Positions 21,327-48,702 of a stretch of DNA of 64,000 nucleotides are shown here, one piece after another (the stretch's first letter is position 1; each line of letters starts with the position of its first letter). The position numbers and the translations under genes are program-made. Source of the DNA: a bacterium (GTDB lineage Bacteria > Oederibacteriota > JAAXVQ01 > JAUVAV01); contig JAIORK010000008.1 of the NCBI GenBank assembly GCA_021108215.1, positions 1 to 64,000 of the forward strand, in the 5' to 3' direction. The notes beneath the pieces were generated by a model. It made no database searches and was not told the DNA's origin. It saw only the letters and a list, made by a program, of their open reading frames with translations.

Positions 21327-21371
21327 ACTTCATTATTTATGATAAAGGAATGCTTTAAAAGGAGTTCGTGC

Positions 21372-33300: not shown

Positions 33301-36300
33301 AAGCCCGGCAAAGCCGACGCTTCCGTTTGACGGCGCGCAGTGCTTTTTCCAAAGGACTGGATATTTACTTACAGGAACAAATCAACGCGTATAAGGCGCC
33401 GGTGTTGATCCAGGAACAAAAAATAGAGGTTGTCGGGGATGAGAAACCGGCGGGGAGATTGCAGGTGTCCGCCTTGCAGGCCGCGGTTTCGGCAGTGGGA
33501 GTGATCGGCATCGCCGGAGTGCTTTCCATGTTTCTTTCGCCGGATAGTGCAGTGCAGATTACGGCAGTATGGAGTGTTGCCGGTACTTTGGGATGGCTGG
33601 TCAGCTATATTCCGAGACTTTTTTATATTACGAAACTGACGGCCTCATCAGCACCTGTATTGATGAACACAACCATTCATAAACAGATGTCGCTTTTACT
33701 GGAAGATATTGAACGCCGCGGCGGGCTGCCTGCCGGATACCGGCGGCCGGAATTATTTGTGCTGCCGGATCAGAACACAGGCGCCTGGACCTGGCAAGGC
33801 GTTAAAGTGGCCGGCGGGAAAAACGGGGTCATCGGTCTGCATGCGCGTTTTTTGGGTCTGCCGTATGCCATGCAACGGGCGGTCATGATTCATGAAATCT
33901 ATGAGGCCCATCATAGGAACCATTTTTGGGCAAGCATGCAGGAACTGCGTTCCTACGTCAGCGGGTTTTTCCGCCGGTCAATTCCGGTTATTACTCGAGA
34001 CCGGTTTTTTCAATACAACCGCATACAGCAGGGTAATTTTTCCAATGCATATTTAGGAAAGTATGCAGGTAGGGAAGGTGTGTTTATCATCACTAAAGAA
34101 ATGGATCCCTATCATGAGGATTATGATGCCCGGGTGGCAGCTGATACGGACGTACTCGCCCGGATTGGGACGAGCGTTCAAACGACGGTGCGGAAATATC
34201 ATGCCATGCGCGGACTACGCTATCAAGGAAGGCGCATGGTCCCGCGTGTGTATGCCATGGTGGTCAATGATGCCGGTTATTTGGTGGGTTATCTCTGCGA
34301 CCGTGTGCCGGGAGAACAGTTGGCGCGTTTGCTGGCGGCAGGTCGGTTGACGGAAAAACAATTGGAGCAAGTGAGCGGACAGTTAAAAGATCAATTGGAG
34401 ATCATGCATAAAAAAGGGTTCACGCACGGTGATCCGCATTATGAGAATGCTCTGGTTGATATGGAAACGATGCGGGCTGCGTTTGTTGATTTTGTGCCCC
34501 AGACCGAGACCGATTCACCGGGCAACGACATGTCGATTTTTTCCGATTTGTTGGTGGCCAACAGCCGCTGGCTGCGCATGCCGTATGATGAACGCGTAAC
34601 CATTTTTCAAAATCAATTTAATCAGATTGTGTCATTGGAAGCTGAGCTTGATGTGCTGCACAACCTGCAACGCGAAACCGGATATCAGATCAACGATGCC
34701 GCCTACCGGAAAGCATCCGCCAACCTGCGGAACGTCCTGGCAAGTATGAAATTGCATAGTGGCTCCATACAAAATACTCAGCTGTTGCTCTGGCAAATAC
34801 GCCAAATAGTGGAATCTGAATTTTTGAAACTGCGTACCGGTTACACGCCTTTTCGAAGTGCGCTGAGTCAAAAAATGCCGGTTAAGATGCAGGTGTTACA
34901 GCAGTCTGTTTTGGAACAACTGGCCATGGTTATGAATTTTTGGGATGATTTGTTTGCCTTTGACCGTATTGCGGAGAAAGCCGTCCAACCGGCGCCGGCG
35001 CGGCGCCGGTTGGCTGTTTTGAATCGGGCTTACCGCCAAATCAGTCGAAACCAAATTGTGGATTTGGCAACTGTCCCGGGTTACCGGCTGGTGGATTATC
35101 TTGAGGCATTACTCGGTGTTACGGCGCCGTTGGTTCAGGGCGGCAACGGCACGGTCGCTTATTCCCTGGACAGTGATCCGATGGTGGAATGTTATACCGA
35201 TGGTATTTTTACGCTGCAGCGCAACGGGCATATCATTTATATGGCGGCGGCGCCTTTTTTGGATTCCGGATATGTCCCGCAGGACAATCTGCTGCGTGTG
35301 CTGGAAAAAAAGACGATTCCCCGGTTGATATGGCACGGTCCTTCGCAGCAGCGCTATGCCATCATGGCGGCACCATCGCCCCGGGTGCCTGATGAACTGC
35401 TGGTGATTAGTCTGGACCGCGATGCCCAAACTGGAAAACATTTTACGCAAAAAATGATTCCGCGTTTTCGAACAGATATGCAGGCATTGCAAGTGCAGTT
35501 GGTCAAGAGCGGTTATGCGCTGACATTTCAATCCCTGGACCCGCGCGAAGATAATGCCATGCACTTTCATATGTACGCTGTGCCCACCCGGAATTTACCC
35601 TTGGTCCGTGCTTTGGACAAGGGACAACTCAAGTTTTTCGAGAGCATCGGGGCGTCCGGGTCTGTCCGTTTGGATCTCATGAGCAACCTTTTATTTAAAA
35701 ACAATGACGGCCGGATTGTTTATCCGGCCAATGGATTGTTGCTTCGCAGTGCTGACTCGGCTTTGTTGGCGGATGCCGGGAAAGAGATGCTGCAAGAAAT
35801 TCAGCTGTTGGAAACGGCCTATCACTCCTTGACCTGGCAGCAGCCGGACGGGACTTGGGCCATGCTTATGATGCCGCTGAAAACGTATCTGGCCGGTGAG
35901 TCCAAAGTCCGGGTTAATCCCTTGACAACGGCCGGTTATGTTGGTGTTGCGCCGGGAGATATTTACCAACAAATGGTAAAAACACCGGGTGCCGGTGCCC
36001 GCTATGTCAGCGATATTCTTCGGCAAAGTACAGCTGATTTTGCTGTATGCAGGAACATCGCTCAACGGATTGTCCCTGTATTGGAACAGGGAGCAAGGCT
36101 GCAACCATCGGCAGAGAAACCGTTGGAGATCACGGTGCCCATGCTCCCGCATCCAAAAAATATTGAGGGAGCCTATGCTGAACAGGCCAGTGTCAATGTG
36201 GAGCGCATGCTCCGGGTGCTGGGTGTGCCAAAAGGTGCGGTCGTGCTTAATATCGGCGCCGGACGCAATCCGCTTGTTTCAGAACAGTATCATGTTATCA

Positions 36301-39300
36301 ATATCGACAATTACGCTTATACCGGTCTGGAGGATGGCCGGGTGGAATCCCGGGTTTTTATCGGGGATATTTACGCTCCGGGATTTACCCGCCGACTGAT
36401 GGATACCCATCAGTTGGATGCCAAACCGGATGTGGTTGTTTTTTATAATATGCGGCGGTTTATGGATTTATACGGTCCGGTAAGCAGCAGCTGGGTGCTG
36501 CAAAATAAATCCATGCGGGACATCAACATTCAAGCTTATCTGAATCAGGCGGCGGATATTGTCCGGCCGGATGGATTGATTCTGTTTGCCCAGTTTATGG
36601 CACCGGAAGGCTATGAGACGGACGCGATTACTCAAGAGGCGATCGACCTGGCAGTCAAAGCCACGGCAGATATGGAGGATGTTACGCAGGCGGCGGTTCT
36701 GATCCGGAGTGGGGAGGAAAAAGCGGGACTCCCGGTCGCTGCGGTATTCCGGTCAACCCGGCAGGAGCAGGATTCCCCAACAGCAACCCGGGCACTCAAA
36801 ATTTCACCACGGAACATTATTTTGGGGATAACCGGTTGGCTGCTCGTAAGTGTGTTTGCCATGCAGTTTTCGACGCATGCTGCGCTCACCACATTTTTCA
36901 TGAGCGGAATCGGTCTGGGAATGATTGGATTGGCAGTGAATTATGTTCCGCGTTTATATTACGGATTCCGTCTGCTCAGCGCGACGGTTCCCCCGCTGGA
37001 CCCGGCACACGTGAACACGCAGTTAAAGGGTTTGATTGAAGATATCGAGCGTCGCGGCGGCTTGCCGGAAAATTACCAGCGTCCGGAACTTTATGTCCTG
37101 CCAAAGCAAAACCTGGGATCAAAATTATGGCAGGGATTGCTGCTGGGACGCGGCGAGCGCGGCACGATCGGATTACATGCTAATTTTAATGCCCTGCCAA
37201 TCGTTGCCCAGCGCGCTGTTTTATTGCACGAAATATATGAAGCCCACGGTTCGGGGCATTGGCGTGCCACCTGGCAGGAACTGACATCTTTTGTTCGCCG
37301 TCATGTTATTGCGCCTGCCCGGTTTTCCGGGGTTTTTCAGATCAGCCGTGATGATGACGCTATGTCCGAAAAGGCCGCCATGCAGTTCGCGCAATCAATA
37401 AACCGTGCGATTGCCAAAAAGGGGAAGGCAGTGGTTGGATTTGCCACCGGCGGCACACCGAAAAAAATGTATGCGCTGCTGAGGAACCATCCGGAACGCT
37501 ATGGCATTGACTGGCGTAAAGTCCATACCTTTAACCTGGATGAATATGTTGGATTGCCGGCAGGTCATGAGCAGAGCTACCGGCGGTTTATGGAGGAACA
37601 GCTTTTTTCGCATGTGCCGATTCCAAGAGAGAATATTCAATTTCTTAACGGCATGGCCAAGGATCCGGCGGCGGAAGCCCGCCGCTATGAACAAGCCATA
37701 CAAGCTGCCGGTGGCATTGATGTCCAGTTGCTGGGGATAGGAGAGAACGGGCATCTGGCTTTCAACGAACCGGGCACGTCCTTTGCTACGCGTACCGGTG
37801 TTGTGCAATTGAACGATTCCACGATCAATGCCAATGCGCGTTACTTTGACACCAAAGCCGAAGTCCCTGCGCAAGCGCTATCCATGGGTATGGGAACGCT
37901 CTTAGACGCGCGGGAATTAATTCTATTGGCATCGGGGGAAAAGAAAGCAGCGGTCGTGGCGCGCGCGTTTGAAGGCCCGGTGACGGAAAGGGTTCCGGCA
38001 TCGGCGCTCCAGCTGCATGAGAAGGCACATGTGTTTATTGACCGGGCGGCGGCGAATAGCTTGCATCATTCGCCCGGCATATCCGCTGAAATACAACTGG
38101 ATTGGGAACTGACGCAGATCAACACGACCCTCATGCCCCTGCGGAGTGTCTATGCCCATGTCCCGTTAATCCGTGATGTTCTGATTGCATTGCTCCGGCT
38201 GGAACTCAACACGGCAGGTGCACGGGAATACTTATTGGCTGAACTGGAAAAAATGAGTGACCGGCAATACGGTTACAGTCCGGCTTTTGTGATGGGCGGT
38301 GGCAGAAAATTCGATTTATTTTATGCCATTGAATTGGTAAAAGATTATTTTCGCCGGGGGCGGCCCGTGGTTCCGGAGCAGTACTGGCATGTCACACCGG
38401 ATAAATTTGACGCGATGCTGGCCCGTGCTTTGCGTATAACCGGAAGGACGCTTACTATAGAAGAAAAAGCTGAGGCGCGCCGCTTCAATCGGGCCTTGCT
38501 TCAGATACCCTGGGCCATGCAGGATATAACCAATGATCCGCGCTATCCGCATATGTGCGGCCCGGCAGCGCAGATTATTATGCAGGTTTTACTGGAAAAC
38601 GGGATTGTTCGGAAGAAATTTATTTTCGGGGAACATGTCGGTGTTGAAGCCATCGTTGCCGGATTTAAATTTTATGTGGATGGGACCGGGAATCACGTTG
38701 TTCAGCTGGATGACCGGCAAATTGCTCCGGTAGTCGTGCCGCTGTTGGATATTCCCGATAGTCCGGTGCTAAGCGCTGTCTACCCGGCAGAATATAAACA
38801 GCTGACGCGGGGATATTATTATGCGCCGGATATGCAGCCGGATATCGCGGAGGCTCTGCTTAAGGTGCGGGAGGTTGTTATTGAGCAACGTGTTCGCAAA
38901 GGATACCGCAGCACCCGATCGATCATACAGGACAGGACGGTGGGGGATCTGGTTTTTGAACCAGGTGATATAGAGCAAGGGGTCAGTATTTATACGCATC
39001 CGGAAACCGGGTTTGTACTTAAATTAGCTGCGCAAGCTGTTGGTGAAAATTATATCAAGCTGGCGGCCGAGGGCGGTGAGGGGCTGGCCCACACACGCCG
39101 GCTGTTGCCGCAAAGCATCCGCATCCCGGGAGGGAAAATATTTTTAAAGAATGCGGTTCTTCAGCAGGATATCCAGGATCTCGGACAGCTGTTGGAAATT
39201 TCAGTGGAAGCCGGATTGTTGGACCGGGCAAAAAATTATCTCCACGATTGGGCCGACCTGCAGATTAAATTATTCCGACGCGGACTGGTGGACAAACTGT

Positions 39301-42300
39301 TTACCGCGCAAGCAACACAGGCACAGAAGAAATTTTGGCAAAAAACCGGGATGAACCCGCAAGGCCAATTTGTGCATGCCGGATTTGAAGATCTCACCCG
39401 CCGGGCGGTCTCGAAAGCTGAAATTTTAAGCGCGGTCAGGCAACTGCCGCAGTGGTTTGCTGACGCCTATCCCGGTCAGGCACGCACCGAACTGCAAGTG
39501 TATTTGGCAGGCGAGCTGGTACCTTATTTAACTGCTGCATTTGAAAAGCGCCGGTTGGGTGATATCGCTATTCAGGCAGCCGCCGACGAGACGGTGTCAG
39601 CCAAACTTTACATCGCGGCAACGGATGCGAAACTGGACTGGATTGACCGCGAAAAATTATCAAGTATTTTACGCGAACTCTATCCGGGTGAATTGGCTGT
39701 GACCGAGATGACTTGGATAAGACCCGGGAAAGTGGCGCGTCTGGGTTTGGTGCACAACGGCCGGGTGGAAAATGTTTATTGTCGGCGTGAGGGATATTCA
39801 CTTACGGCCCTGGGCATGACATTGCAGGCATTGACCGGTTTGGATGGGTTTACGATCCGGCGTTTGGGTGAAGACGGGATGGTCAGTGTGGATGCCGGGA
39901 TAACGGTTACGGAATTTATTAAACTGGGGCACCGTCTGCTTGAACATGCCGGGGAGAATGCGGGATATCAAAAAATATTGGAAGCGTTTTTTGAACAGTT
40001 GAGCAGCCAGTTGGGTGTTTTGCTGGCCAGCCATGTTCTGCTGGCGTACCAAGACGGGGCGCCGCACAATGTGGTTGTCAAGGGTATGATGCAGGTCAAA
40101 GCCGCATTGGATCAAGGCAAGACCTATCAGGCGTTTGAAATTTTGCGCCAAATTGTTGAAACGCGTGATGTTAAATTGACCAATATTGATTTTGAGGTGA
40201 ATCAGCTTTTTAATAATGTACCGGTTTCGCAGTGGAATTCATACGCCAAATATGTTTTGTTGCAAAATTTCAGAGACCAAATCGATATGGAACGTGTTTT
40301 GAACAGTTATGATTCTGCTTTTGATGAGGCGCGCAGCCGTCAGACAGAGGTGGAAAAGGCCATTGTTGATCATCCTGTACAGGGGCTAAAGCATCCGGCG
40401 GCAGTGGAAGGGGGTATTCGGCAGAGACTGTCACCTACCACGCAACTGCGGTATTTCCGGCGTTTGCTCCGGAGTATTTCGCTGCCGGCAGGAATAAAAA
40501 ATCGTCTGGATGCCCTGGACAGTCCGTTCGACCTGCCGGATTTGGAAATTTCTTTTTGGGAAAAATATTTGCCTGGATTCCCCAAGCAGCTTCGGACATT
40601 GGGTGAAGAACTTATTTTCCGTGTCACGCCCATGTTGTTGTTCCATCTCGGTTTGATCACGCCGGTGACGGCCGCCATTGCGCTCACGGTTTTTTCCGCT
40701 GCATTTTTGTATCAGCACAAGGATAAAGGTTGGAATGTGCGCCAGTGGATAACCGCCGGGCTGATGACGACCCTGATCGCGCTGGTTTATTTTGGGACAG
40801 CTTATGGTTTGTCGGCGGTTGATTATCCGGTGGCCGGCGGTGTGCTGGCGTTTTTGGCAGCATCACTGGTGCACAGTTTTAATAACTGGTTGTCCGAGCG
40901 TTTTCCTGCTGTCTGGCCTGCGCTGGCACTCGGGGCTACGGGCCGGGGCAGACAGATGCTCAGCCGGGTTGATAGGGCAATGCAGCAAAAAGGTACGGCG
41001 GAAGCGAAGCATTTATTGCTGGTGGCATTGCGCAAGTTACATCAGAGCAGACCCCGGAAACTCATAGCATCGGCGCGCACGACTGTTTTACAGGCGATTG
41101 GGAGCATCTATGCCGACAAGGTGTTTTCGCCGCGATTGCGTTTGTGGCAACAGGGCTTGGCAGCATCCCGGCCGCTGGAACAGATTTATGCTGATCTGGA
41201 CCGGCTGGATGGATTGCTGAAAAAAGACCCCAATGATTACTGGCCCATTAATTTGAATGACCTGGACTTTTGGAGCGAGGCGCTGGGATTCAAGCGGGTG
41301 AAGGCCGTCGGGGATGCGGGAAGTCCCCGCACCATCGGCAGCCGGTATACATTTGTCCGCCACATGTATGACAATAGCAATGTCAGTTCTACGGTTTCAG
41401 TTTACCAGGACAACCGGACCGGCCGGGAAGTCGTGGTAAAGACGATTACTGCGCATAAATTCTTTTTCATTTTACTCAAAGAGTATCTTTGGCTCAGTGA
41501 TCTGGCGGAAACGGTTGCTGTGCCCCGGCTGCTGGAAGGCGGCATTTATAAGAGCGGTCCGAATAATGTGGATGTTTATTATATGGTGATGGAGCTGGTA
41601 GACGGTGAAACCCTGGATAGCATCATGGGGAATGAAAAATTGGCACTGGTGGATTTGGCAACGCTGACACGCGGTTTGTTGCGTGAGTATGCCCGTTTAC
41701 AACGCCACGGGGTGCTGCAAATAGATGTTAATCCCGCCAACATCATGCTGCTGCGGGAAAAAGGCGGTCAAGCCTGGGATGTTGATTACAATCGTCCGGT
41801 CCTGATTGATTTCGGGTTTGCCATGCCCTTGCCGGAAAGCGGGATTGTCCAGTTGCTGCACTGGATTGGTCTGCCCCAGTGGCACCATCAGATGAATATA
41901 AAAGACGGTCGCTATACAGTGCGAAGTGAACTTGGGATTTTGGCTAAAATATTACTGGCCATACCGATGAAAAAACAGCTCGCGGTTGAGGAGCTTGAAT
42001 TTCGCGATTTTTTATTTAAATTATCACATTTTGAATATGCTTCCGCTGAAGCGGCGTTGTTGGCACTGGAGGCCCATCTCCCGGAAACCATGCAGATTGC
42101 GGAGTCAGCTGCGTTGTTTCCGGATACAGTTTCGGTGGTTAAAGCGGCCAAAGACGATGCTGCGCTGCTTGCGAAGGATACTGCCCGGGAAGTGTTGGAG
42201 TTGATGCCAGATGCTTTTATGACCGGCACCGCTGTCATGCGCGCCGGACAATTGAAGACCTTGCTGGCACTATTGCAGCATGAGTCATTTGAGATTAAGG

Positions 42301-45300
42301 CACAGGCACGCGGGCTGCTGGATAGACTGATGACGGATACTGAATTGTTTAGCCGGTTGGACCTGAGTCAGGTGACGGCTGTGCGTACAGGGTTGGCGGA
42401 TCAGCCGTATTTAGGGGCAATCAATATTTCCACTCAGCCGGGACGCTTGGGGCAGTTGAATTATTTTCTCGCCCGCCAGTCATCTTTGCGCGGGCTGTTG
42501 ACCCAAGGCGGAAAGATAGTTATTGATACGGTCGGTATTGGCGGCCCCCTGCCCTATACAGTGGCTGAAATGGCCAAAAGGATACACGCGGTCAATCCCG
42601 AGGCTGAAATAATCGGGTCGGATATTTTAATTCCTCACTGGGTCATCACCGATCAAACCACCGGCCAGTTCGCTTATTACAACCAAGCAGGAGAATTGAT
42701 CGGCGTTTTTACCCGCGATGGCGGTGGATTGACCAAGGACAGTGAACTCCAGCCCATGGCCGCGCTCTTTGATCAGGTCCGCGCCAAGACCCTGCCGGAA
42801 AATTACCAGGTGGAAGAAAATCCTTTTGAACAGTATGCAGCGGAAAATCAGTTTGCGGTACAAAAGGCAGCGTTTGGCAAAGGCATCAAGGCGGATATTA
42901 AAATTTGTATGAATGTGCTGTATATGTACGGCAGGCAGCGTACACAGATTATTGAGAACATGGGACGCGACCTCAAAGAAAACGGATATCTCATCACCGG
43001 TGAGGAAGAAGACGGTATTGTCTTTGTCACGCTTTATCAGAAACAGCAAGGCAGACTGCAACCGCAGGTATCTGCGCAAGTAAGAGGCGATTCTATTTAT
43101 GAAATTCCGGTTTACGGTCAATCCATTGCGGTTGCTGAGGAAAAGACACAGCGTCTGGTGGCGGCATATATTTTTAATGATCTGGGACGCTGGCCGGTAC
43201 TGGTCCGGTTTTATGACAGTCTTGAAAAAGCGGTCGGGAAACTGTGGGGGGGGAATGTCGGGCGTTTTGTCGGACAGGCATTGGCGCCTGCGCTGCTTGA
43301 ATCAGGATTGTTTGTCGGTATGTTTACTTTGGGGATACAGCTTTTGCTCGCGATGGTATCCGGCGTGCCCTTTGCGATGGGGCCGCCGACATGGGTTTTG
43401 TTCGGCGTTTTTCAGCTGCTCTGGCACGGCTTGCATCTGCCTGCCGATCAAGGCGGCTTGACAACCTCAGAATTTTTACGTAGCTGGCTGCAATCGGCAT
43501 TTTCACCTGCACGCATTGCCACCACCGGTTTGACCGGTGCGGTGCTGCTTGCGATGCAGCTGCTGCTCAACCCCGGCGGGATTTTATTTTCCGCCTTGTT
43601 CCTGCCGGTTTTGGTCGGAGTACATGTCGTCGTGAATGTCTGCGGCAACCTGAAAAAACAGTGGGATGCCAGTTGGCAAAAATTGGCATTGAATCTGTGG
43701 CGGCAGACATTCAAGCTGCTCAATGGCAAACGGCCTTTGAATATTTATGCGGATTTCAATGAGACCCTTTCGCGGCTGCGAACCCACCGTTCGCTCAGCT
43801 TGAAGGATATTGTTGGCAAGGATATTGAAAATGAGACGGACAGGCTGGAATTCAGTGAACGCTACAATCAGGCACGGAAACAGTTTAGTGAAAAGCTGAC
43901 GCCTGAACTTTACAAGGAGTATTATCAAAGCCTGTCCGGACATATGACGCTTAAGCATAGCAGGGAACGGGCACGACGCTGGAAACTCAATGAGAATTTC
44001 TTTGCCAAGATCCATGCCATCCAGATTGCGACCGGTATCCAAGAAATTAATCTGCATGTGATCAGCCGTTCCAGTGAACAGGCTTTGCGTCATTTCTTCC
44101 AGTTGCCCTCGGTAAAAAAACGGTTGAACGGGGCGGAGATCCGGATCGAAGCGGTCAAGGCCAACCGGTTGGTTTTTGATGAAGCCGGTGTGTTTACCGG
44201 CGAGGTTCTGGAAGATTATTCCCAGGCCCTCATTGCGGACAACAAGTATGAGTTTGTGCCTGAAGGTGTGATGTACCTGGGTGATGCCAAGGAGCACCAA
44301 TACGGATACCGGCATTTCATTGATGTCAATGCAAGGCAGGGGTCGGCCCGGGCCATCCGGCAATGGATGCGTGAAATTATCAACCAACGCTTGTTCAGTT
44401 CGGTTCGGATGTTTCTTGCCTGGATAAAACGGGCATTGAAAATGCGGTTTACAAAAAAAGCAGTACGTATGTCGGACTATCGCGAGAGTCGTGCCTATCA
44501 GGCTATGACCGAGGCGGTTTCGGCCGTGCCGATGAAAAAGACCCAGTCTGCGATCAAAAATATTCAGACGCTGTTTGTCCGGCATCAGGTCGGGCTGGAG
44601 GATTTCGTATCGGAAAAAGATATCCGTCAAAGTTGGTCGGATAAAATCATGGCAAAAGCCGACAAGTTGTCTCGGGCTGTTCAAAAAGAGGTTGGCGCTT
44701 TCGAACGCGATCACTTGCAACATCTTTCAGAACCGCTCCGGCGGGCTTATTGGGATTGGATACTGCTCCGGCTTTTTATGCAGCATGACGACGGATTCAC
44801 CTTCGGCCATTCCTGGGAAGTGGGGAATCTGGCTGCGAAAATGGCAAGTGTCTATGGCCGTGTGAATATGCAGGATGATTTAAGCCCGGAAACGATTGAT
44901 ATCTTCCGTCGCGGCGGCTGGCTGCATGATGCGGGGAAATTGATGATTCCCCGGGAACTGCTTTTAAAGCAGGAACGGTTGACGCATAAAGAGCGTATGC
45001 TGATCCGTACCCATGCCAAGTTGGGCGAGAGCGTCCTGGATGCGTTTGGCTACCCGGCTTCAATTATCCAGGCCACCAACCACCATGAATGGCTCAATGG
45101 CAAGGGGTATCCGCGTGGATTACACCGCGAAAATGTCCCGGCACTGAGCCGGGCGATCGCTATTGCGGATGCCTATAATGCCGCCACCGAACGTGCCTAT
45201 AATGGTGATAAAGTCATTGCGATATTCCGGGAATTTTTTGAGTATTCAACCAGCGTGGTGTCGCGTTACGATTCGCGTTGGGTCAACGCGCTGCGGAAAA

Positions 45301-47234
45301 TCAAGTATACGGAAATTGATACAAGCGGGTTGGACCTTTTCCAGCTTGACCAGGCGGTGGAACGGGAAAAAGACAGCGGCGGATGGTTGCGGGTGTCACC
45401 GCTGCGCATCTTGGGCCAGATCATCGGAATCGGATTTATGGGCGGCCTGATGGGATTTTGGCTGTTTCAGGACCCGGCCTTGTCAACCCTGACGATGGCC
45501 GGGAGTATGAGCGGCTTGGCTGTGGGTGCGATTCATGCACATCGTCTTATCATACGTCGTCAGATTACGCGTTCCACGCTGGTGCCGCTTACGGCTGACA
45601 CGTTGAATTTGCGCCGGGCACAGTTGCTTGAGATGATTCAAGTGCAGGGTGATCTGCCAAAGGGATACGATGCAAATAAAATTCGTCTGGAAGTTCTCGC
45701 GCTGCCTGCACGCACACGTTGGTGGCAGCGTTTAATCCTGGGGCAGGGTGAACGGCGCGGGGATGAAATGATCATTCGTTTGCATCCGCAACTCCACGTT
45801 CTTTCCATCCAGGAGATGGCGGTTGTGGTGCGGCATGAAATTTGGGAAGCCTATACCGGAAGCCATCTGCGGGCAAGCCTCTCGGAAATTGTGATGCAGT
45901 GGTTTGGTGCCCGGACAACCGCCCCGGAAGTTGCAAGCGCGGTTGATGAAGCGCCGCTGTTGACCAACGAAACCCCGCGCGGAGAGCGGTTGGGAAAAAT
46001 TCCGGAAGTGCTTATGCAAATGCAGGAACTTGCGGCCTGGGGTATTCGGCCGAATGAAGCCCCGGCACCTGCCTGGAACGGCATGCAACAGATTTTGAGA
46101 AATTTACTCAATACTTTTGTTTTTGAACAGTCGGTTTATCAGGCCGGAAGTGCGCTGCTGCGGATTCCGTTTGAAAAAGCCAGTGAGATTTTTGGCAGCG
46201 GATTGCTCCTGGTAAGAATGGGTGTGCGCCTGGGTATGAGGCAGCCCGCCGAAACAGGTTTGACAATTGATACCGCGCATCCTGCACTGCAAACGCTGTT
46301 ATTGGAAAACGGGCTTCCGGATAAAATTGCCTGGCAAATGGCGGGCAAACATCGCATCGCACTGCCGGAAATTCAGATTCAACCGATTACAGCAGAAACG
46401 AAATCAGAGTTAAACAGTTCGCGTGCAAAACGGTTGGGTGTTCTGCAACCCGCCGGGAATCAACTTGTACTCTATCTCCCTGCGGGTTTACTGGCGCGGC
46501 ATCTAAAAGGCGCGCCTGCCAAGGATGCCAAAGGCGTGCGCGCAGCCTGGGAGCGCCGGACCTACCGGCTAAACCGGTATGCACTGGGTCTGCTTATTAA
46601 AGATCATGCAGCAGGCTATCAGCAAACCACTCGGATGGACCTTATGGTGGCGGCATTGAAGGCGCAATCGCAAACCACGAAAAAACCGTTTGAACAAAAT
46701 CTGCCTGCCATGAAAATAGGGTTGGCAATGGCGGCCCGGCTGCCTGCGTTTATAGCCGGCCCGATTCATCAGTACTGGCAAAAGAGAAATCCGGAGAGCT
46801 ACTTGCGCCACAATTTGGGCGGACCAGAATCCACCCTAAGTCAGGGACTTTTGGATGCACAATCTCCGCTAGGTGCATTGTTCCGGATTTATCTGGCAGC
46901 ACCCACGGCTGAAGTTGGCCGGGCATTTATGCGTACAGCGCTGGAAAGCATCCAACACGAGCAGGCGGCCGGCCGGATTCAGGAAAGCATGGCATCTATC
47001 GAAATATTGTCACAGCTTGCGAAGCGTATGCCTCAGATGCGGGGACGTGTGATCGGCCGGTGGACAGCCACGAATCAGACCATCACATTGCCCAAATGGA
47101 TAAATGCTTCAGGCAATGCCAGGTTAAAAGGAATGCTCATCGATATTCTTTCGCCGATGCCTGTCCTGCTGGAACAGAAATTCCTCAGTCCGGACCGGAA
47201 CCGCATCCGGCGTCGTCTGGGCAGCGCAGCCTAA
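21372..47234 (+). CDS. Giant multidomain membrane-associated protein, 8620 residues
   Basis: This single frame has 8620 codons and no stop. ATG 21372 has AAAAGGAG at the right distance; the in-frame ATG 21339 has none. An N-terminal hydrophobic segment (residues about 30-48) looks like a signal-anchor. Domains in order, by approximate residue: TraB/ChaN-like 77-430; PLP-enzyme-like 1240-1610; duplicated membrane module 1625-1780 and 2515-2668; FHA-like beta region 2137-2197; GT4 glycosyltransferase 2725-3163; methyltransferase-like 3397-3590; kinase-like 3753-3903 and 4210-4387; HIT-like 4590-4760; methyltransferase 4937-5083; NagB-like 5333-5563; Cys/kinase-like region 5710-5984; CPBP protease 6397-6510; kinase-like 6653-6833; methyltransferase-like repeat 7010-7230; HAD-like 7455-7647; HD-GYP 7797-7977. 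A module with HEIxEA occurs three times. Cellular role and processing are unknown. Similar giant ORFs are reported in Omnitrophota. Confidence 0.93.
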   Translation: MYRMDEKPFQSKVRIFSFWQSSAARKGIRALALLITLTFVFPYLTWAFENQTFLTGLSTVFYRNQPIEIPKKLGTISRVIQGQNQVVIHIEDLHCNYEVQMNIAKMIRLFSKKLNLHLVAVEGAAREVNVRKLASFPEKLVRKQVGNYFMQQGKVTGAEYYAALAPETVTLVGIETPAHYQTSREKVAEFLNDESQGYVFDLKDAFQELKPSVYSPTLAKHDHYRSGFIAGRKSLLAYAVYLYKSGLKIGLSMQAYPNVKVFVSKRLNIFPLEADADQLYFEIEKLEKQVRAPLYSNDQEQELDHLMSRLDVIEKLLSISAAPEDLKLFRKQRTFFRVDRFVEYIAKNDPTGNLETGFEIYRLDGYLREVEAFYSLADTRSHAFVENTLQQMKKHKTGIAVMITGGFHSPVMQAAFQQQGISYVNVKPRLSRPDLVNPYFALLRNRSTAIEKLLAQNQDILALPTIFPQGEGRGVAFENSQPKRVKTFLKLLDVTLKQGLIASLMRRGVEGLGAVESEYLQELRAYTENNEKISIDWERAAASPSSQTFFLPMHNTGFTVVIRRQGRKIQGESLATWDLGNAYEIAMFDQTVAEQMQVQLLREESDSLRGTLVRLALLNSPVAALITGSSAAMVRDRRSLFAMWQTIRSSTAMRGLATVLVRAASGLEQVSTRLLVLRNQPRVILGTAAVAAWLGSLAIGNPVLGSMIFLSMLALDWQFNQTGWPQLAAVAPGIQGMTVAMQTILQPSADTGIIRMQGDLSSSGKSGAVASGPETAFVAKRTILLRNKKNTLAEITDATRSLLELIQEQYLPQTEIRGTANLQPINLHLLKILVTQINTDLQNPEKFSVEQFQDKYFEYVEMLANLLHSQAWLSPTYAGSAVMERGLLQGDRYPVRYEREELSPFQLESSFLAGIFPGDSRLLFRNGKILIYDLATALMANMPKSAAAYRRAFYISPKLPSEFKISLKRMLGVSKKAGDQLLTPETFGKYKSIVISADDLADGELLDQMTAYNREHSAFADRIVSVVVYSKTRIELLPEQKAALQAADIDFFEVYNLNKLLHIPARRASGTAVLVSHFASETRKKTLIQQLLKNRKDGSNIDSYLNWYLSLLAGKTQQASLDTSYYPNTQEVIHRQTLIKRTPELLQKYISLHRQMQALALRPGLAGRLYQVVLQRIQEHIGLLKTFNLRGPPPTGDAALNKCRDSYSEYRTLMKYLAYFQLNSLQSKKNRTDMARSSLEEMEVRLNKMNTPVKLSAGGHLPQSTLVFSSGMAAVKILRHFLSIQPGVAGREAGILLETNIYYEISSLLKSGAGVLQPIKVVDYKDIDGLVKLAAGGGYSALFLDPVANAMSAFNNNRADLPVADYQSLLHRLAGLTYSEPFYLMIDTSLFGPVFQIEPFLRKLNVPDNLHFVLYSSLQKHHQDHREYSTGGMLTIISRRVDQHQSAVQGLRLARDTLGLRPNFLEGILLANALPSGKVIGDYVAGTMANAQQLAEHIAQELTTYPLNGQVVHPTLPSHQDHAVWQANQTPGVPFVMLKLGFRKNKMFMEMLNRRLVRAGIVIQARDSFGFSNLTYTHYFPGKSDETIRFSLAPYAVEEMEKIKTAFSSAFQELDEQRRLGYPGPYSRYLSLPGALGSLTAGLGMLALAWVFPLALGLALPYTIFAAAKLRVAWREWQQLEVADKSWRTPVAYYNPATGQIFDRNQKIIIDGSPIVIAHERYAHRWAQHLLRLVGMDTSLPFYAVTPRIRLLQNLLQELLAHALDFIALPWALRDYGRPLPDVTVSFYGKSYHTREIIHLFERGLGLGGMIFEKLTPQIQKQVRRRISPGAWAAYQYEKFVDRHLQRINQQYLGGLSGSMQEKRLQENSRLREKVFVIGRERLITAHGTSALGNGLTNLIKIILDGKIDFTPGRETAGALDRGESSIAAGVWGPQFILVGSPLRVRYWNGIKNHRAYLVQDSIDRNILLALLAQAGEDGLLSKRRAQQVRSRIMTYAEFIAQAEKGVVPGETMTVGERLARLSTGKKISLFSLLALVAVRVISGESLSLAYLFEYVNLDMPLYLSAGISIFGLKGAKGPQALEAGRRYLIEYQGPFKIQLGDKNGQELDVVAYRDLPDLLKPFFNKNVPYIILDPHQQDMHSGFAGLRPGKPVKIGTGLPNRFTLPDGVSPVHVHLETFANGQIMIQDQFSTGGTYVLGADRMDGYAQDERIVQAELAWRHFIEHGIIVNKPGGGYFVNRTWKPDVGSDAVAMLDAYQDSREALEGARQVWKQVQQPVSSRQMFETGKREPAQLLALADNFENLYERLRELNPDVNGLDAEALINMIGMVRTGKAPMTVFTSLEGTELAGLSSIVSKLQNREEVIPQVLAEVNTFQQLYAFLETQTGNYRGKTGPEWLELVKQVREDMLTPNWITNGQDTLLKGLRDMVMRLKQADALKSAQWEKAVQLGIVTRIPGTSSDYFVIKNWHPGMTIDSRRITQQVSYRMDAFDLALPILERAAGRPAADAFDPQRGQPLSLPGSLMALGMGVGLLALSMAMPLVGAVALPYSMMAIAKLMTTLQEWRKLSPATRTFTTPVAMYDPKYGAIKNHLGQTLENAHWIILAHDHYAHSWAKQLLKRLGIDINRFPTKSLRFYVFNVIICEVMAHFFDFMAVPVALARYYRAPKKNVYTILGVFGLLTLAALFVVIPTLPVSLPVMAMVAAVLVLNIIFVHNLTPLMLMKPKRVGILSALMGGLDGVSLELEKIVEVLNRTGHSVVGLSANGNAIAAETESIGGASFDNLINQFILSQALPDFPPEKKFYYLHQAWLKKQKNPGFDTANYIRQFIPGQELLPQDNVEAAEMLLQRESERIKQQILKIVDARGLDTLILENTNTIPFQFPLAEAMVKVAQARPDLHIINHNHDFYMERRWAEKRAPFIQKYLDRGFPLQGGNVTNNVISSFAIRLLREHRGMKAFEIWPNVMDYKERVPDISPESMQDIAQRLNLKQDDIPVVLPVRIVERKSMEIAVYLMKALKDKRYKLIITGFETDTDQRYKQSVKAYIDDLGVGDQIIFMEEQEQAAMGIKPGWKGTKRLVSLEEMYAFARRRGGFAVYSSTKEGFGNALLEVVHAELPLVVFPYAVYQLDIQPKGFEFLQFPFIENSDQISSADLQVALQQGEIQKGIEQVAQEVKTKFSNRVWVRRNVKKNRVIAAREYSYEKLDELVAEALLLTEAVQQKAGVLRSVAARSFNARLLRLFGWEQARTLAGRAWISGLYSRLRPSYQERGLKRNLQQLQVWFLTRFMTEDRLRMMLQSPQRLKNITGLIAAQALFQKMAPTQREEIIRMLRSQLLFHKTSFEVIALTRNLLAEWVANPVYQALVTEQQRNEIAESLAQQPYFGHVNITTYQNRLKLLYNFLTTDTSLRTLLKKADGVVVKDVGLGGPEAYPTDELTRRVKQLNPHNQVIGMDVLIPHTMFYDTLSGAVAYFDAQGGFMGAWTQEGFFIYSEKDVATMAELYQLEQAQKLPGRYQSTVEPYQRFSEMSGYEVVAGSFGVGRMADITICMNTMYMYATQEALQISQLGKWTRPGGYVLVGDSMDDRIIFILYQKTQAQHLKPLKLILLKGRRRYEASLEENISQQEVAGRREALCHQEQRAINQRGFILSPLVVSLAGLSLFVLTVMFLGSVFYAAVIGVGGAVLALGAFFLLKRIRNAAQADKNRPAKEWGYIFKTAVREADRQRIIRAVERGRILTKAVGRALRGQKKDFQIGPVVNVTFIGAGAFKRAYRVQVPVMFADGTTREFDVALKIPRSVIGRIAMLQPRIWRHWLRGHVNLPAYHFISQGVIAEAYVHGNRLDEIETSNNGDGRPVARIAVNAYLSVLEHLKKVSGRNWFIFDPKPENMIQPRQPGAEPVLIDRDGLLPTPLPNHPFTLLVYFSAFYGEKRLGITRFMQGLLSPLILFTAPLIAYFVRPNQSIFAGVLDALGPEAGRAYLEKARQSRRFRLTARSAFSKGLDIYLQEQINAYKAPVLIQEQKIEVVGDEKPAGRLQVSALQAAVSAVGVIGIAGVLSMFLSPDSAVQITAVWSVAGTLGWLVSYIPRLFYITKLTASSAPVLMNTTIHKQMSLLLEDIERRGGLPAGYRRPELFVLPDQNTGAWTWQGVKVAGGKNGVIGLHARFLGLPYAMQRAVMIHEIYEAHHRNHFWASMQELRSYVSGFFRRSIPVITRDRFFQYNRIQQGNFSNAYLGKYAGREGVFIITKEMDPYHEDYDARVAADTDVLARIGTSVQTTVRKYHAMRGLRYQGRRMVPRVYAMVVNDAGYLVGYLCDRVPGEQLARLLAAGRLTEKQLEQVSGQLKDQLEIMHKKGFTHGDPHYENALVDMETMRAAFVDFVPQTETDSPGNDMSIFSDLLVANSRWLRMPYDERVTIFQNQFNQIVSLEAELDVLHNLQRETGYQINDAAYRKASANLRNVLASMKLHSGSIQNTQLLLWQIRQIVESEFLKLRTGYTPFRSALSQKMPVKMQVLQQSVLEQLAMVMNFWDDLFAFDRIAEKAVQPAPARRRLAVLNRAYRQISRNQIVDLATVPGYRLVDYLEALLGVTAPLVQGGNGTVAYSLDSDPMVECYTDGIFTLQRNGHIIYMAAAPFLDSGYVPQDNLLRVLEKKTIPRLIWHGPSQQRYAIMAAPSPRVPDELLVISLDRDAQTGKHFTQKMIPRFRTDMQALQVQLVKSGYALTFQSLDPREDNAMHFHMYAVPTRNLPLVRALDKGQLKFFESIGASGSVRLDLMSNLLFKNNDGRIVYPANGLLLRSADSALLADAGKEMLQEIQLLETAYHSLTWQQPDGTWAMLMMPLKTYLAGESKVRVNPLTTAGYVGVAPGDIYQQMVKTPGAGARYVSDILRQSTADFAVCRNIAQRIVPVLEQGARLQPSAEKPLEITVPMLPHPKNIEGAYAEQASVNVERMLRVLGVPKGAVVLNIGAGRNPLVSEQYHVINIDNYAYTGLEDGRVESRVFIGDIYAPGFTRRLMDTHQLDAKPDVVVFYNMRRFMDLYGPVSSSWVLQNKSMRDINIQAYLNQAADIVRPDGLILFAQFMAPEGYETDAITQEAIDLAVKATADMEDVTQAAVLIRSGEEKAGLPVAAVFRSTRQEQDSPTATRALKISPRNIILGITGWLLVSVFAMQFSTHAALTTFFMSGIGLGMIGLAVNYVPRLYYGFRLLSATVPPLDPAHVNTQLKGLIEDIERRGGLPENYQRPELYVLPKQNLGSKLWQGLLLGRGERGTIGLHANFNALPIVAQRAVLLHEIYEAHGSGHWRATWQELTSFVRRHVIAPARFSGVFQISRDDDAMSEKAAMQFAQSINRAIAKKGKAVVGFATGGTPKKMYALLRNHPERYGIDWRKVHTFNLDEYVGLPAGHEQSYRRFMEEQLFSHVPIPRENIQFLNGMAKDPAAEARRYEQAIQAAGGIDVQLLGIGENGHLAFNEPGTSFATRTGVVQLNDSTINANARYFDTKAEVPAQALSMGMGTLLDARELILLASGEKKAAVVARAFEGPVTERVPASALQLHEKAHVFIDRAAANSLHHSPGISAEIQLDWELTQINTTLMPLRSVYAHVPLIRDVLIALLRLELNTAGAREYLLAELEKMSDRQYGYSPAFVMGGGRKFDLFYAIELVKDYFRRGRPVVPEQYWHVTPDKFDAMLARALRITGRTLTIEEKAEARRFNRALLQIPWAMQDITNDPRYPHMCGPAAQIIMQVLLENGIVRKKFIFGEHVGVEAIVAGFKFYVDGTGNHVVQLDDRQIAPVVVPLLDIPDSPVLSAVYPAEYKQLTRGYYYAPDMQPDIAEALLKVREVVIEQRVRKGYRSTRSIIQDRTVGDLVFEPGDIEQGVSIYTHPETGFVLKLAAQAVGENYIKLAAEGGEGLAHTRRLLPQSIRIPGGKIFLKNAVLQQDIQDLGQLLEISVEAGLLDRAKNYLHDWADLQIKLFRRGLVDKLFTAQATQAQKKFWQKTGMNPQGQFVHAGFEDLTRRAVSKAEILSAVRQLPQWFADAYPGQARTELQVYLAGELVPYLTAAFEKRRLGDIAIQAAADETVSAKLYIAATDAKLDWIDREKLSSILRELYPGELAVTEMTWIRPGKVARLGLVHNGRVENVYCRREGYSLTALGMTLQALTGLDGFTIRRLGEDGMVSVDAGITVTEFIKLGHRLLEHAGENAGYQKILEAFFEQLSSQLGVLLASHVLLAYQDGAPHNVVVKGMMQVKAALDQGKTYQAFEILRQIVETRDVKLTNIDFEVNQLFNNVPVSQWNSYAKYVLLQNFRDQIDMERVLNSYDSAFDEARSRQTEVEKAIVDHPVQGLKHPAAVEGGIRQRLSPTTQLRYFRRLLRSISLPAGIKNRLDALDSPFDLPDLEISFWEKYLPGFPKQLRTLGEELIFRVTPMLLFHLGLITPVTAAIALTVFSAAFLYQHKDKGWNVRQWITAGLMTTLIALVYFGTAYGLSAVDYPVAGGVLAFLAASLVHSFNNWLSERFPAVWPALALGATGRGRQMLSRVDRAMQQKGTAEAKHLLLVALRKLHQSRPRKLIASARTTVLQAIGSIYADKVFSPRLRLWQQGLAASRPLEQIYADLDRLDGLLKKDPNDYWPINLNDLDFWSEALGFKRVKAVGDAGSPRTIGSRYTFVRHMYDNSNVSSTVSVYQDNRTGREVVVKTITAHKFFFILLKEYLWLSDLAETVAVPRLLEGGIYKSGPNNVDVYYMVMELVDGETLDSIMGNEKLALVDLATLTRGLLREYARLQRHGVLQIDVNPANIMLLREKGGQAWDVDYNRPVLIDFGFAMPLPESGIVQLLHWIGLPQWHHQMNIKDGRYTVRSELGILAKILLAIPMKKQLAVEELEFRDFLFKLSHFEYASAEAALLALEAHLPETMQIAESAALFPDTVSVVKAAKDDAALLAKDTAREVLELMPDAFMTGTAVMRAGQLKTLLALLQHESFEIKAQARGLLDRLMTDTELFSRLDLSQVTAVRTGLADQPYLGAINISTQPGRLGQLNYFLARQSSLRGLLTQGGKIVIDTVGIGGPLPYTVAEMAKRIHAVNPEAEIIGSDILIPHWVITDQTTGQFAYYNQAGELIGVFTRDGGGLTKDSELQPMAALFDQVRAKTLPENYQVEENPFEQYAAENQFAVQKAAFGKGIKADIKICMNVLYMYGRQRTQIIENMGRDLKENGYLITGEEEDGIVFVTLYQKQQGRLQPQVSAQVRGDSIYEIPVYGQSIAVAEEKTQRLVAAYIFNDLGRWPVLVRFYDSLEKAVGKLWGGNVGRFVGQALAPALLESGLFVGMFTLGIQLLLAMVSGVPFAMGPPTWVLFGVFQLLWHGLHLPADQGGLTTSEFLRSWLQSAFSPARIATTGLTGAVLLAMQLLLNPGGILFSALFLPVLVGVHVVVNVCGNLKKQWDASWQKLALNLWRQTFKLLNGKRPLNIYADFNETLSRLRTHRSLSLKDIVGKDIENETDRLEFSERYNQARKQFSEKLTPELYKEYYQSLSGHMTLKHSRERARRWKLNENFFAKIHAIQIATGIQEINLHVISRSSEQALRHFFQLPSVKKRLNGAEIRIEAVKANRLVFDEAGVFTGEVLEDYSQALIADNKYEFVPEGVMYLGDAKEHQYGYRHFIDVNARQGSARAIRQWMREIINQRLFSSVRMFLAWIKRALKMRFTKKAVRMSDYRESRAYQAMTEAVSAVPMKKTQSAIKNIQTLFVRHQVGLEDFVSEKDIRQSWSDKIMAKADKLSRAVQKEVGAFERDHLQHLSEPLRRAYWDWILLRLFMQHDDGFTFGHSWEVGNLAAKMASVYGRVNMQDDLSPETIDIFRRGGWLHDAGKLMIPRELLLKQERLTHKERMLIRTHAKLGESVLDAFGYPASIIQATNHHEWLNGKGYPRGLHRENVPALSRAIAIADAYNAATERAYNGDKVIAIFREFFEYSTSVVSRYDSRWVNALRKIKYTEIDTSGLDLFQLDQAVEREKDSGGWLRVSPLRILGQIIGIGFMGGLMGFWLFQDPALSTLTMAGSMSGLAVGAIHAHRLIIRRQITRSTLVPLTADTLNLRRAQLLEMIQVQGDLPKGYDANKIRLEVLALPARTRWWQRLILGQGERRGDEMIIRLHPQLHVLSIQEMAVVVRHEIWEAYTGSHLRASLSEIVMQWFGARTTAPEVASAVDEAPLLTNETPRGERLGKIPEVLMQMQELAAWGIRPNEAPAPAWNGMQQILRNLLNTFVFEQSVYQAGSALLRIPFEKASEIFGSGLLLVRMGVRLGMRQPAETGLTIDTAHPALQTLLLENGLPDKIAWQMAGKHRIALPEIQIQPITAETKSELNSSRAKRLGVLQPAGNQLVLYLPAGLLARHLKGAPAKDAKGVRAAWERRTYRLNRYALGLLIKDHAAGYQQTTRMDLMVAALKAQSQTTKKPFEQNLPAMKIGLAMAARLPAFIAGPIHQYWQKRNPESYLRHNLGGPESTLSQGLLDAQSPLGALFRIYLAAPTAEVGRAFMRTALESIQHEQAAGRIQESMASIEILSQLAKRMPQMRGRVIGRWTATNQTITLPKWINASGNARLKGMLIDILSPMPVLLEQKFLSPDRNRIRRRLGSAA
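21600..22660 (+). other. Giant protein domain: TraB/ChaN-like
   Basis: Starts VVIHIEDLHCNYEVQ and ends with VMITGGFHSPVMQAAFQQQG. The paired motifs (acidic-His near the start, GGFHS near the end) resemble TraB/PrgY and ChaN-type folds. The assignment is by pattern only. Confidence 0.5.
25090..26200 (+). other. Giant protein domain: PLP-dependent enzyme-like (fold type I)
   Basis: VFSSGMAAVKILRHFL resembles the cofactor phosphate loop, and Lys1420 in SSLQKHHQ sits where the Schiff-base lysine would be. It is closest in style to Cys/Met-metabolism enzymes. Activity is uncertain. Confidence 0.5.
26245..26710 (+). repeat. Giant protein membrane module, copy 1
   Basis: SLPGALGSLTAGLGMLALAW, then PVAYYNP, HERYAHRWAQHLLRLVG and ELLAHALDFIALPWALRDY. 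It matches the module at 28915-29375 residue by residue in many positions. Confidence 0.75.
28915..29375 (+). repeat. Giant protein membrane module, copy 2
   Basis: SLPGSLMALGMGVGLLALSM, then PVAMYDP, HDHYAHSWAKQLLKRLG and EVMAHFFDFMAVPVALARYY. The HxHYAH-W and AHxxDF histidines are shared with copy 1, which suggests a conserved site. Confidence 0.75.
29545..30860 (+). other. Giant protein domain: GT4 glycosyltransferase
   Basis: A GT-B fold pattern starts at VGILSALMGGLDGVSLELEKIVEVL. The E-x7-E signature of GT4 retaining enzymes is visible as Glu3100 and Glu3108 in STKEGFGNALLEVV. It resembles sucrose-phosphate-synthase-type enzymes. Confidence 0.7.
31560..32140 (+). repeat. Giant protein methyltransferase-like module, copy 1
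   Basis: KDVGLGGPEAYPTDELTRRV, then IGMDVLIPH, ITICMNTMYMYA and LYQKTQ. The arrangement is Rossmann-like and repeated at 42400-43060. Confidence 0.65.
33640..33960 (+). repeat. Giant protein HEIxEA module, copy 1
   Basis: LLEDIERRGGLPAGYRRPEL is followed by a loop and AVMIHEIYEAHHRNH (His4174). Two membrane helices precede it. Two further copies occur at 36970 and 45560. Confidence 0.75.
35140..35650 (+). other. Giant protein domain: HIT-like, paralogue of the 19878 gene
   Basis: YAIMAAPSPRVPDELLVISLD and AMHFHMYAVPTRNLPL parallel the standalone protein. His4731 and His4733 are kept, but the Gln of HxHxQ is Tyr4735, so catalysis may differ or be lost. Confidence 0.65.
36970..37290 (+). repeat. 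Giant protein HEIxEA module, copy 2
   Basis: LIEDIERRGGLPENYQRPEL and AVLLHEIYEAHGSGH (His5286), again after membrane segments and directly ahead of the NagB-like domain. Confidence 0.75.
37370..38060 (+). other. Giant protein domain: glucosamine-6-phosphate deaminase (NagB)-like
   Basis: FATGGTPKKMYALL, FNLDEYVGL (Asp5390), GIGENGHLAFNEPGTSF (His5461) and ALSMGMGTLLDA reproduce the NagB active-site blocks, so the fold and possibly activity are conserved. Confidence 0.85.
40560..40900 (+). other. Giant protein domain: CPBP/CAAX-type membrane protease
   Basis: GEELIFRVTPML (Glu6412 onwards) is the EExxxR motif, and His6501 in ASLVHSFNNW is the second catalytic motif. Transmembrane helices lie between. 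Confidence 0.7.
41330..41870 (+). other. Giant protein domain: protein-kinase-like, most intact copy
   Basis: Lys6690 (VVKTI), catalytic-loop IDVNPANIML (Asp6785) and LIDFGFA (Asp6813) give all three kinase hallmarks. The other kinase-like folds are more degenerate. Confidence 0.7.
42400..43060 (+). repeat. Giant protein methyltransferase-like module, copy 2
   Basis: IDTVGIGGPLPYTVAEMAKRI, IGSDILIPH, IKICMNVLYMYG and TLYQK match the module at 31560-32140 in order and spacing. Confidence 0.65.
43735..44310 (+). other. Giant protein domain: HAD-like phosphatase fold
   Basis: IYADFNETLS gives the nucleophile Asp7461, but the second acid of DxD is Asn7463. LHVISRS and MYLGDAKEH resemble motifs II and IV. 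Activity is doubtful. Confidence 0.5.
44760..45300 (+). other. Giant protein domain: HD-GYP phosphodiesterase
   Basis: GWLHDAGK (HD at 7852-7853), RTHAKLGESVL, HHEWLNGKGYP and IADAYNAATE make a complete HD-GYP domain, which in relatives cleaves cyclic di-GMP or related nucleotides. Confidence 0.85.
45560..45880 (+). repeat. Giant protein HEIxEA module, copy 3
   Basis: LLEMIQVQGDLPKGYDANKI and VVVRHEIWEAYTGSH (His8155). This is the most diverged copy, again preceded by two membrane helices. Confidence 0.7.
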
Positions 47235-48594: not shown

Positions 48595-48613
48595 TTGTGA
48601 TCGGATTGGTTTC

Positions 48614-48702
48614 GTAGAGCCGTTGCACCCCAAAAACGGGCACTTACGCATGCAACGGCTCTACAGGGCTACAACGTCTCTACACAGGCGCAACGTCTCT
48701 AC
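48614..48702. repeat. GTAG palindrome cluster (GTAGAGCCGTTGCA and GTAGAGACGTTG types)
   Basis: A composite palindrome (48614-48664) with a 24-bp insert is followed by two half elements ending CTAC. The last CTAC (48699-48702) contains the stop codon of the minus-strand ATPase. Confidence 0.8.

Follow-up and report, generated by a model that had tools for sequence, protein, structure and literature searches.

A membrane-hairpin module with a conserved HExxE site and a zincin-like fold recurs in giant bacterial proteins

A giant open reading frame in the window (the whole 64,000-nucleotide stretch of DNA analysed here) carries three copies of a module in which a membrane hairpin is followed by about 120 residues with the motif HEI[YW]EA at their end. 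The homology of the copies, the conservation of five site residues, a zincin-like fold and a site spacing equal to that of Wss1 are supported by the analyses described below. We lean, somewhat above even chance, towards reading each copy as an integral-membrane zincin of the minigluzincin/SprT-WLM type with a permuted site of two His and one Glu, which would cut its own chain or membrane proteins. The reading frame, the modules and their sites are:

21339..47234, + strand: giant open reading frame of 8631 aa, carrier of the three modules, read from the ATG at 21339
33417..34010, + strand: module copy 1, membrane hairpin plus zincin-like domain (residues 4027-4224; profile match)
36762..37304, + strand: module copy 2 (residues 5142-5322; profile match, AlphaFold model)
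45354..45917, + strand: module copy 3 (residues 8006-8193; profile match, AlphaFold model of the soluble part)
33891..33944, + strand: copy 1 site, HEIYEAHHRNHFWASMQE (H4185, E4186, E4189, H4195, E4202)
37227..37280, + strand: copy 2 site, HEIYEAHGSGHWRATWQE (H5297, E5298, E5301, H5307, E5314)
45834..45887, + strand: copy 3 site, HEIWEAYTGSHLRASLSE (H8166, E8167, E8170, H8176, E8183)

An earlier sequence-only reading of this DNA had proposed that the module is present three times, each copy with a HEIYEA/HEIWEA motif, and pairwise alignment together with a search of the module's own genome confirmed both points (HEIYEA in copies 1 and 2, HEIWEA in copy 3). Over about 173 aa, copy 2 is 46% and copy 3 28% identical to copy 1, and with copy 1 as the query the own-genome search returned copy 2 at E 1.0e-39 and copy 3 at E 1.5e-7, which rules out a chance repeat. 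The motif histidines had been correctly picked but misnumbered as His4174, His5286 and His8155, each 11 lower than the true residues 4185, 5297 and 8166, which is compatible with counting from Met12. Of the three, only copies 1 and 2 carry intact the IERRGGLP sequence described for a preceding helix; copy 3 has IQVQGDLP in its place.

The module occurs five times in its own genome: besides the three window copies, a second giant open reading frame of 8763 codons (G000:C49:56939-83227) has two. A search with these five copies matched 7 of 59 genomes, including one false match (G029, E 3.2e-4) that was rejected, as it lacks the motif and disappeared with a larger profile; the 14 genomes outside the phylum gave no match to the same query. 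Thirteen further copies lie in five relatives within the same order; a 15-copy profile found the module at 18 places in 6 of 45 phylum genomes (own included). All six belong to one order, of which eight genomes were examined, and the other 37 phylum genomes gave no match to this profile. A profile search of a first set of contigs gave no match and one of a closer set gave three loci. The relatives include Candidatus Goldiibacteriota DeMMO3_7 (L046, L047) and candidate division FCPU426 CSMAG_2803 (L048). The number of 18 was reached after dropping the duplicate loci L036, L031, L037, L032, L038 and L033, and copies without the motif may be under-counted since the search profiles contain it. Each of the 18 falls within an open frame; the shortest has 822 codons and starts at a contig edge, and the longest has 8763.

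A tree of 17 copies (L042, a 38-residue match, was left out) was mostly unresolved, with 2 of 14 inner branches starred, but it paired copy 3 with the second L048 copy as sisters (100/100). The region of copy 3 is also collinear with L048 over 1191 aa at 39.7% identity, and the two copies are therefore positional orthologues; the L048 orthologue retains all five site residues. An HD domain (HD_5, E 2.1e-17; window 44799-45200) lies within this collinear stretch, just before copy 3.

The full signature of the module is HExxE(x5)H(x6)E, and 14 of the 18 copies have all of it. One copy, L020, has HExxH(x5)H(x6)E, reading HEIHH(x5)H(x6)E, and the tree did not separate an ancestral HExxH from a reversal. 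The site is degraded in three (YMIHK in the first copy of L048, YLLDI in L015 and HKMYE in L042), one of which shares its protein with an intact copy, and such degraded copies count against a peptidase. Position by position, and counting from the first motif His as H0, conservation is 16/18 for H0, 15/18 for E1, 15/18 for E4 (His in one copy), 17/18 for H10, 16/18 for Ala at A13 and 17/18 for E17. By comparison, the top residue has a mean share of 0.46 across the 184 alignment columns, and pairwise identity averages 29%. The His-Glu pair and the following acid had been noted as conserved, and so they are; the idea of a site there had been staked on His/Glu conservation in orthologues and survived this test on 18 copies.

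In Wss1 the zinc ligands are His115, His119 and His125, with Glu116 as the base, i.e. HExxH(x5)H (excerpt of PMC5557861), and in minigluzincins the third ligand is likewise a His (excerpt of PMC6925264). The spacing from H0 to H10 in the module equals that of the Wss1 zinc site, so the near-invariant H10 falls, by sequence position, where Wss1 has its third ligand, and the conserved E4 would then occupy the place of the second His of zincins. All three window copies have HExxE where minigluzincin and SprT/WLM sites have HExxH, and the His at +10 is present in 17 of the 18 copies. The earlier remark that the motif is not a standard HExxH thus holds for the window copies, though it overlooked that the site is HExxH(x5)H in a modified form and that one homologue still has HExxH. 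E17, as conserved as H10, could be a further ligand or could hold the second helix. In L042 (G004:C42), H0, E4, H10 and E17 are kept and Lys replaces the general base E1, making this copy a natural candidate, judged by its residues, for a metal-binding yet inactive form.

These same replacements can be read differently. The module might be an inactive zincin scaffold: a pseudo-protease that retains its fold, perhaps with a metal in a structural role, and that anchors the giant protein in the membrane and spaces its enzyme domains, much as the connector that had first been suggested. Of the 18 copies, 17 have another residue for the second zinc His and three have lost further key residues, and other zincin families are known whose sites carry substitutions and are presumably inactive (excerpt of PMC3650047). 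Against this, E1, H0 and H10 are retained in 15-17 of 18 copies despite 29% mean identity, and 15 of the 18 have the same acid as the substitute, whereas in other families the second His decays to Lys, Arg or Leu more often than expected (same excerpt of PMC3650047). We regard an inactive scaffold as a possibility to be taken seriously, if a rather unlikely one.

The fold was approached through AlphaFold models of copy 2 (188 aa, pLDDT 85.1, pTM 0.77) and of the soluble part of copy 3 (120 aa, pLDDT 84.3, pTM 0.77). The copy 2 model runs membrane hairpin, helix, helix, strand, helix, strand, strand, HExxE helix, helix, and both models have the active helix and following helix of the zincin topology, as a remote match at the level of the fold only. 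For copy 2, Foldseek returned Wss1 (5xbn, E 0.24) and proabylysin (4jiu, E 0.27) with probability 0.92, and it gave no match at E 0.001 or better for either model. In BFVD a SprT-like viral protein ranked first (probability 1.00, E 0.0066). The best VIA-align rows over the domain of copy 2 were 1ge6 (Z 6.5, rmsd 3.0, 95 aligned), 4jiu (Z 6.3, 3.6, 85) and selecase 4qhf (Z 6.2, 3.7, 91), with Wss1 5xbv (Z 5.1, 4.2, 94), BlaR1 8exp (Z 4.2, 3.7, 91) and BepA lower. Copy 3 gave 1ge6 (Z 7.7, 3.8, 101), selecase 4qhi (Z 6.8, 3.7, 90), 4jiu (Z 6.3, 3.5, 83), SPRTN 6mdw (Z 5.7, 4.2, 93), LTA4H 5ni2 (Z 5.3, 3.3, 78) and HtpX 3cqb (Z 5.1, 3.2, 73). Zincins by name (peptidases or LTA4H) make up 28 of its best 29 rows, the exception being 2ejq, a hypothetical protein; clearly unrelated proteins (AcMNPV capsid) first appear at Z 4.8. 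All VIA-align Z values are below 8, which counts against a firm fold assignment. As a yardstick, Wss1 and proabylysin, both assigned to the minigluzincin family, compare at a DALI Z of 6.4 (excerpt of PMC5557861). Modest as our values are, on this scale the models make a good claim, yet a remote one, for a domain that is probably a zincin of the minigluzincin/SprT-WLM type. Where the hairpin matched long helices in unrelated proteins (FUT8, histidine kinases), this was taken as helix noise, and anthrax lethal factor rows (E 0.16-1.9, probability at most 0.25) were read as the common zincin fold only.

Sequence comparison points the same way. Against 177,635 PDB sequences the 15-copy profile found proabylysin (4jiu) best at E 0.0016, the next match being at E 1, and a 9-copy profile without the HExxH copy had 4jiu as its sole PDB match (E 0.0029). 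When the five motif residues were masked, the proabylysin match was lost; the sequence link therefore rests on the motif, and this counts against it. In Pfam, copy 1 matched the YgjP-like metallopeptidases (PF01863) at E 0.016 and 15.7 bits, under the curated cut-off of 26 bits, alone among the three window copies and as one of 2 members among 15 overall. An NCBIfam scan of the three copies gave no match, and none of the scanned Pfam or NCBIfam models claims the domain.

If the module were no zincin at all, but an unrelated membrane module that resembles HExxE by chance, modest fold matches and a sequence match that vanishes on masking would both be accommodated. However, two separately modelled copies both return mainly zincins, H10 has the spacing of Wss1 and one homologue carries the full HExxH(x5)H, so we hold this very improbable. 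The structural rows of copy 2 also include YbeY, titled a metallo-endoribonuclease or metal-dependent hydrolase (Z 4.8, rmsd 4.7, 103 aligned; Z 4.1, 4.9, 104), which would suit a metal-dependent enzyme other than a peptidase on a zincin-like fold, such as a hydrolase of RNA or of lipid-linked substrates. An altered ligand set could favour other chemistry, and some partner domains are enzymes of sugar/phosphate metabolism, but YbeY stands below several peptidases for copy 2, is not among the best 50 rows listed for copy 3, and E1 is retained as in peptidases. Such an enzyme seems to us quite improbable. What had been called a metal or catalytic site is thus a conserved site on a zincin-like fold, for which metal binding and catalysis are our inference.

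The two membrane helices that had been noticed before the domain coincide with hydropathy peaks and with two helices of the copy 2 model:

36807..36977, + strand: copy 2 membrane hairpin (AlphaFold model helices 9-29 and 33-65; hydropathy)

Counted over 17 copies, the flanks of the hairpin hold a mean of 2.8 and 2.6 Lys/Arg per copy and its loop 0.06, from which the positive-inside rule would place the zincin-like domain in the cytoplasm; for the overall topology this is tempered by an N-terminal hydrophobic segment. A second repeated membrane module lies at 26196-26843 and 28839-29486 of the window, and also in L046, L048 and L015. It has a hairpin, AH[ED]xYAH.W and, further on, a helix containing E(V/L)(L/M)AH, shows no clear Pfam family and may, to go by its residues, be another metal site. 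The stretch 40599-40889 of the window has a weak Rce1-like match (CAAX/CPBP intramembrane protease; E 0.02, below cut-off) and contains, in this order, EELIFR, FLYQH and HSFNN, which we take to be motifs of that protease family. A comparable membrane stretch of the second giant contains HVVWN, and Pfam gave it no match to the CAAX/CPBP family.

The sequence-only reading had also given each copy a different partner and cast the module as a connector. Two domains follow copies 1 and 2:

34020..34946, + strand: kinase-like domain after copy 1 (residues 4228-4536; weak APH/Pkinase)
37350..38021, + strand: NagB-like domain after copy 2 (residues 5338-5561; Glucosamine_iso, E 1.7e-34)

The NagB-like partner is clear and the C-terminal tail does come after copy 3; the kinase is weakly supported, its matches lying below the curated cut-offs (APH 4.8e-4, Pkinase 1.5e-3), and stretches homologous to it occur in the second giant at 2055-2259, before the first module there, and at 7686-8005. 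Outside the window, the stretches downstream of 10 of 15 copies were scanned, leaving out the second L048 copy, L014, L021, L015 and L042. Giant 2 has a metallophosphatase (E 1.7e-9) downstream of its second copy, L013 is followed by a HipA-like match (E 6.5e-4, below cut-off) and L020 by PPDK (E 3.5e-35), read from L049 on the same contig; seven of the ten stretches had no match at E 0.01. That copies adjoin many different domains suits an inactive scaffold. Of the connector, the variable placement beside different domains stands and a linker function is unsupported, the variable neighbours fitting insertion of a mobile module as well as a linker role. Directly upstream of the giant gene lies a DUF4922 protein (E 1.9e-6; window 19878-20984). 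Downstream (47488-49898 and 55274-57199) there are Fic with DUF4172, AAA_14/DUF4143 and OLD-like AAA/TOPRIM proteins, possibly mobile or defence genes.

The two giants of this genome have their first 640 residues in common at 40% identity (window 21339-23258), without a clear Pfam family, as well as parts of their C-termini, and their interiors differ and are shuffled. To return to the membrane zincin that we favour, we envisage that the two-helix hairpin anchors a compact metallopeptidase-like domain in which H0, E4 and H10 would hold a divalent metal, Glu taking the place of the usual second His, and E1 would act as the general base that activates water. The domain would cleave peptide bonds near the membrane, most plausibly in linkers of the giant itself or of neighbouring copies; in this way the long string of unrelated enzymes would be trimmed or released there. 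Metal binding, peptidase activity, the cytoplasmic side and self-processing are what we infer here. Wss1 cuts itself (excerpt of PMC4559962) and BlaR1 is reported to do so (excerpt of PMC6925264), which makes self-processing of the giant protein, by analogy, a fair hypothesis. The alignments showed no conserved cleavage site after the modules, which counts against self-cleavage, and the papers searched yielded no verified active zincin with HExxE, which counts against a peptidase. CLCA, written HEXXE in an excerpt of PMC6851300, was dropped as a precedent because an excerpt of PMC9007345 gives HEWAH/HExxH for CLCAs, and the M35 "HEXXE" in an excerpt of PMC7215534 conflicts with the HEQSH that this paper also gives. 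Going further, the giants could be bacterial polyproteins whose enzymes are interleaved with their own membrane proteases (HExxE zincins and possibly CAAX-like ones) that cut the chain into membrane-held enzymes, HExxE being a working His-Glu-His zincin; we consider this broader picture improbable.

Should the site bind metal and cut, it would be a zincin with Glu consistently standing in for the second zinc His, and giant bacterial reading frames of unknown purpose would gain a testable mechanism, self-processing at the membrane. Should it not cut, it would show clearly that giant proteins can put protease folds to new use as membrane anchors. In both cases the domain can be searched for, and no scanned library names it.

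Among known systems, the module resembles the minigluzincins (proabylysin 4jiu, jannalysin, selecase) in the size of its soluble domain, its fold match and its HE with a downstream His, and differs from them in its HExxE in place of HExxH, in a loop before the downstream His that is two residues shorter (profile alignment with 4jiu) and in its fusion behind a membrane hairpin within a giant protein. With SprT/WLM proteins (Wss1, SPRTN) it shares the first-to-last His distance of HExxH(x5)H and the SprT-like best BFVD row, and with YgjP-like metallopeptidases a weak profile match; unlike both, it has Glu for the second zinc His, a membrane hairpin and a giant-protein setting. Minigluzincins reportedly resemble the catalytic domains of the membrane families M48 and M56 (Lopez-Pelegrin et al. 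2013). As in M48 (HtpX, ZMPSTE24) and M56 (BlaR1/MecR1), a minigluzincin-like domain lies here beside membrane helices, according to the copy 2 model and hydropathy, and BlaR1 and HtpX are among the fold matches. Where those families have HExxH and a downstream Glu ligand, the window copies have HExxE and a conserved Glu at +17, with a single hairpin and several copies in one chain of unrelated domains. Literature searches on HExxE motifs, minigluzincins, SprT and YgjP zinc ligands, and FCPU426 or Omnitrophota giant proteins turned up no report of such a module. The giant reading frames of Omnitrophota are, in an excerpt of PMC10066038, similarly very long, rich in membrane helices and from uncultured bacteria; as described there they have few annotated domains or adhesion domains, whereas the FCPU426/Goldiibacteriota giants have a mosaic interior that includes enzyme-like domains. 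A membrane-associated, minigluzincin-like domain is thus known in kind, and it is the permuted site and the giant-protein setting that are new or unusual.
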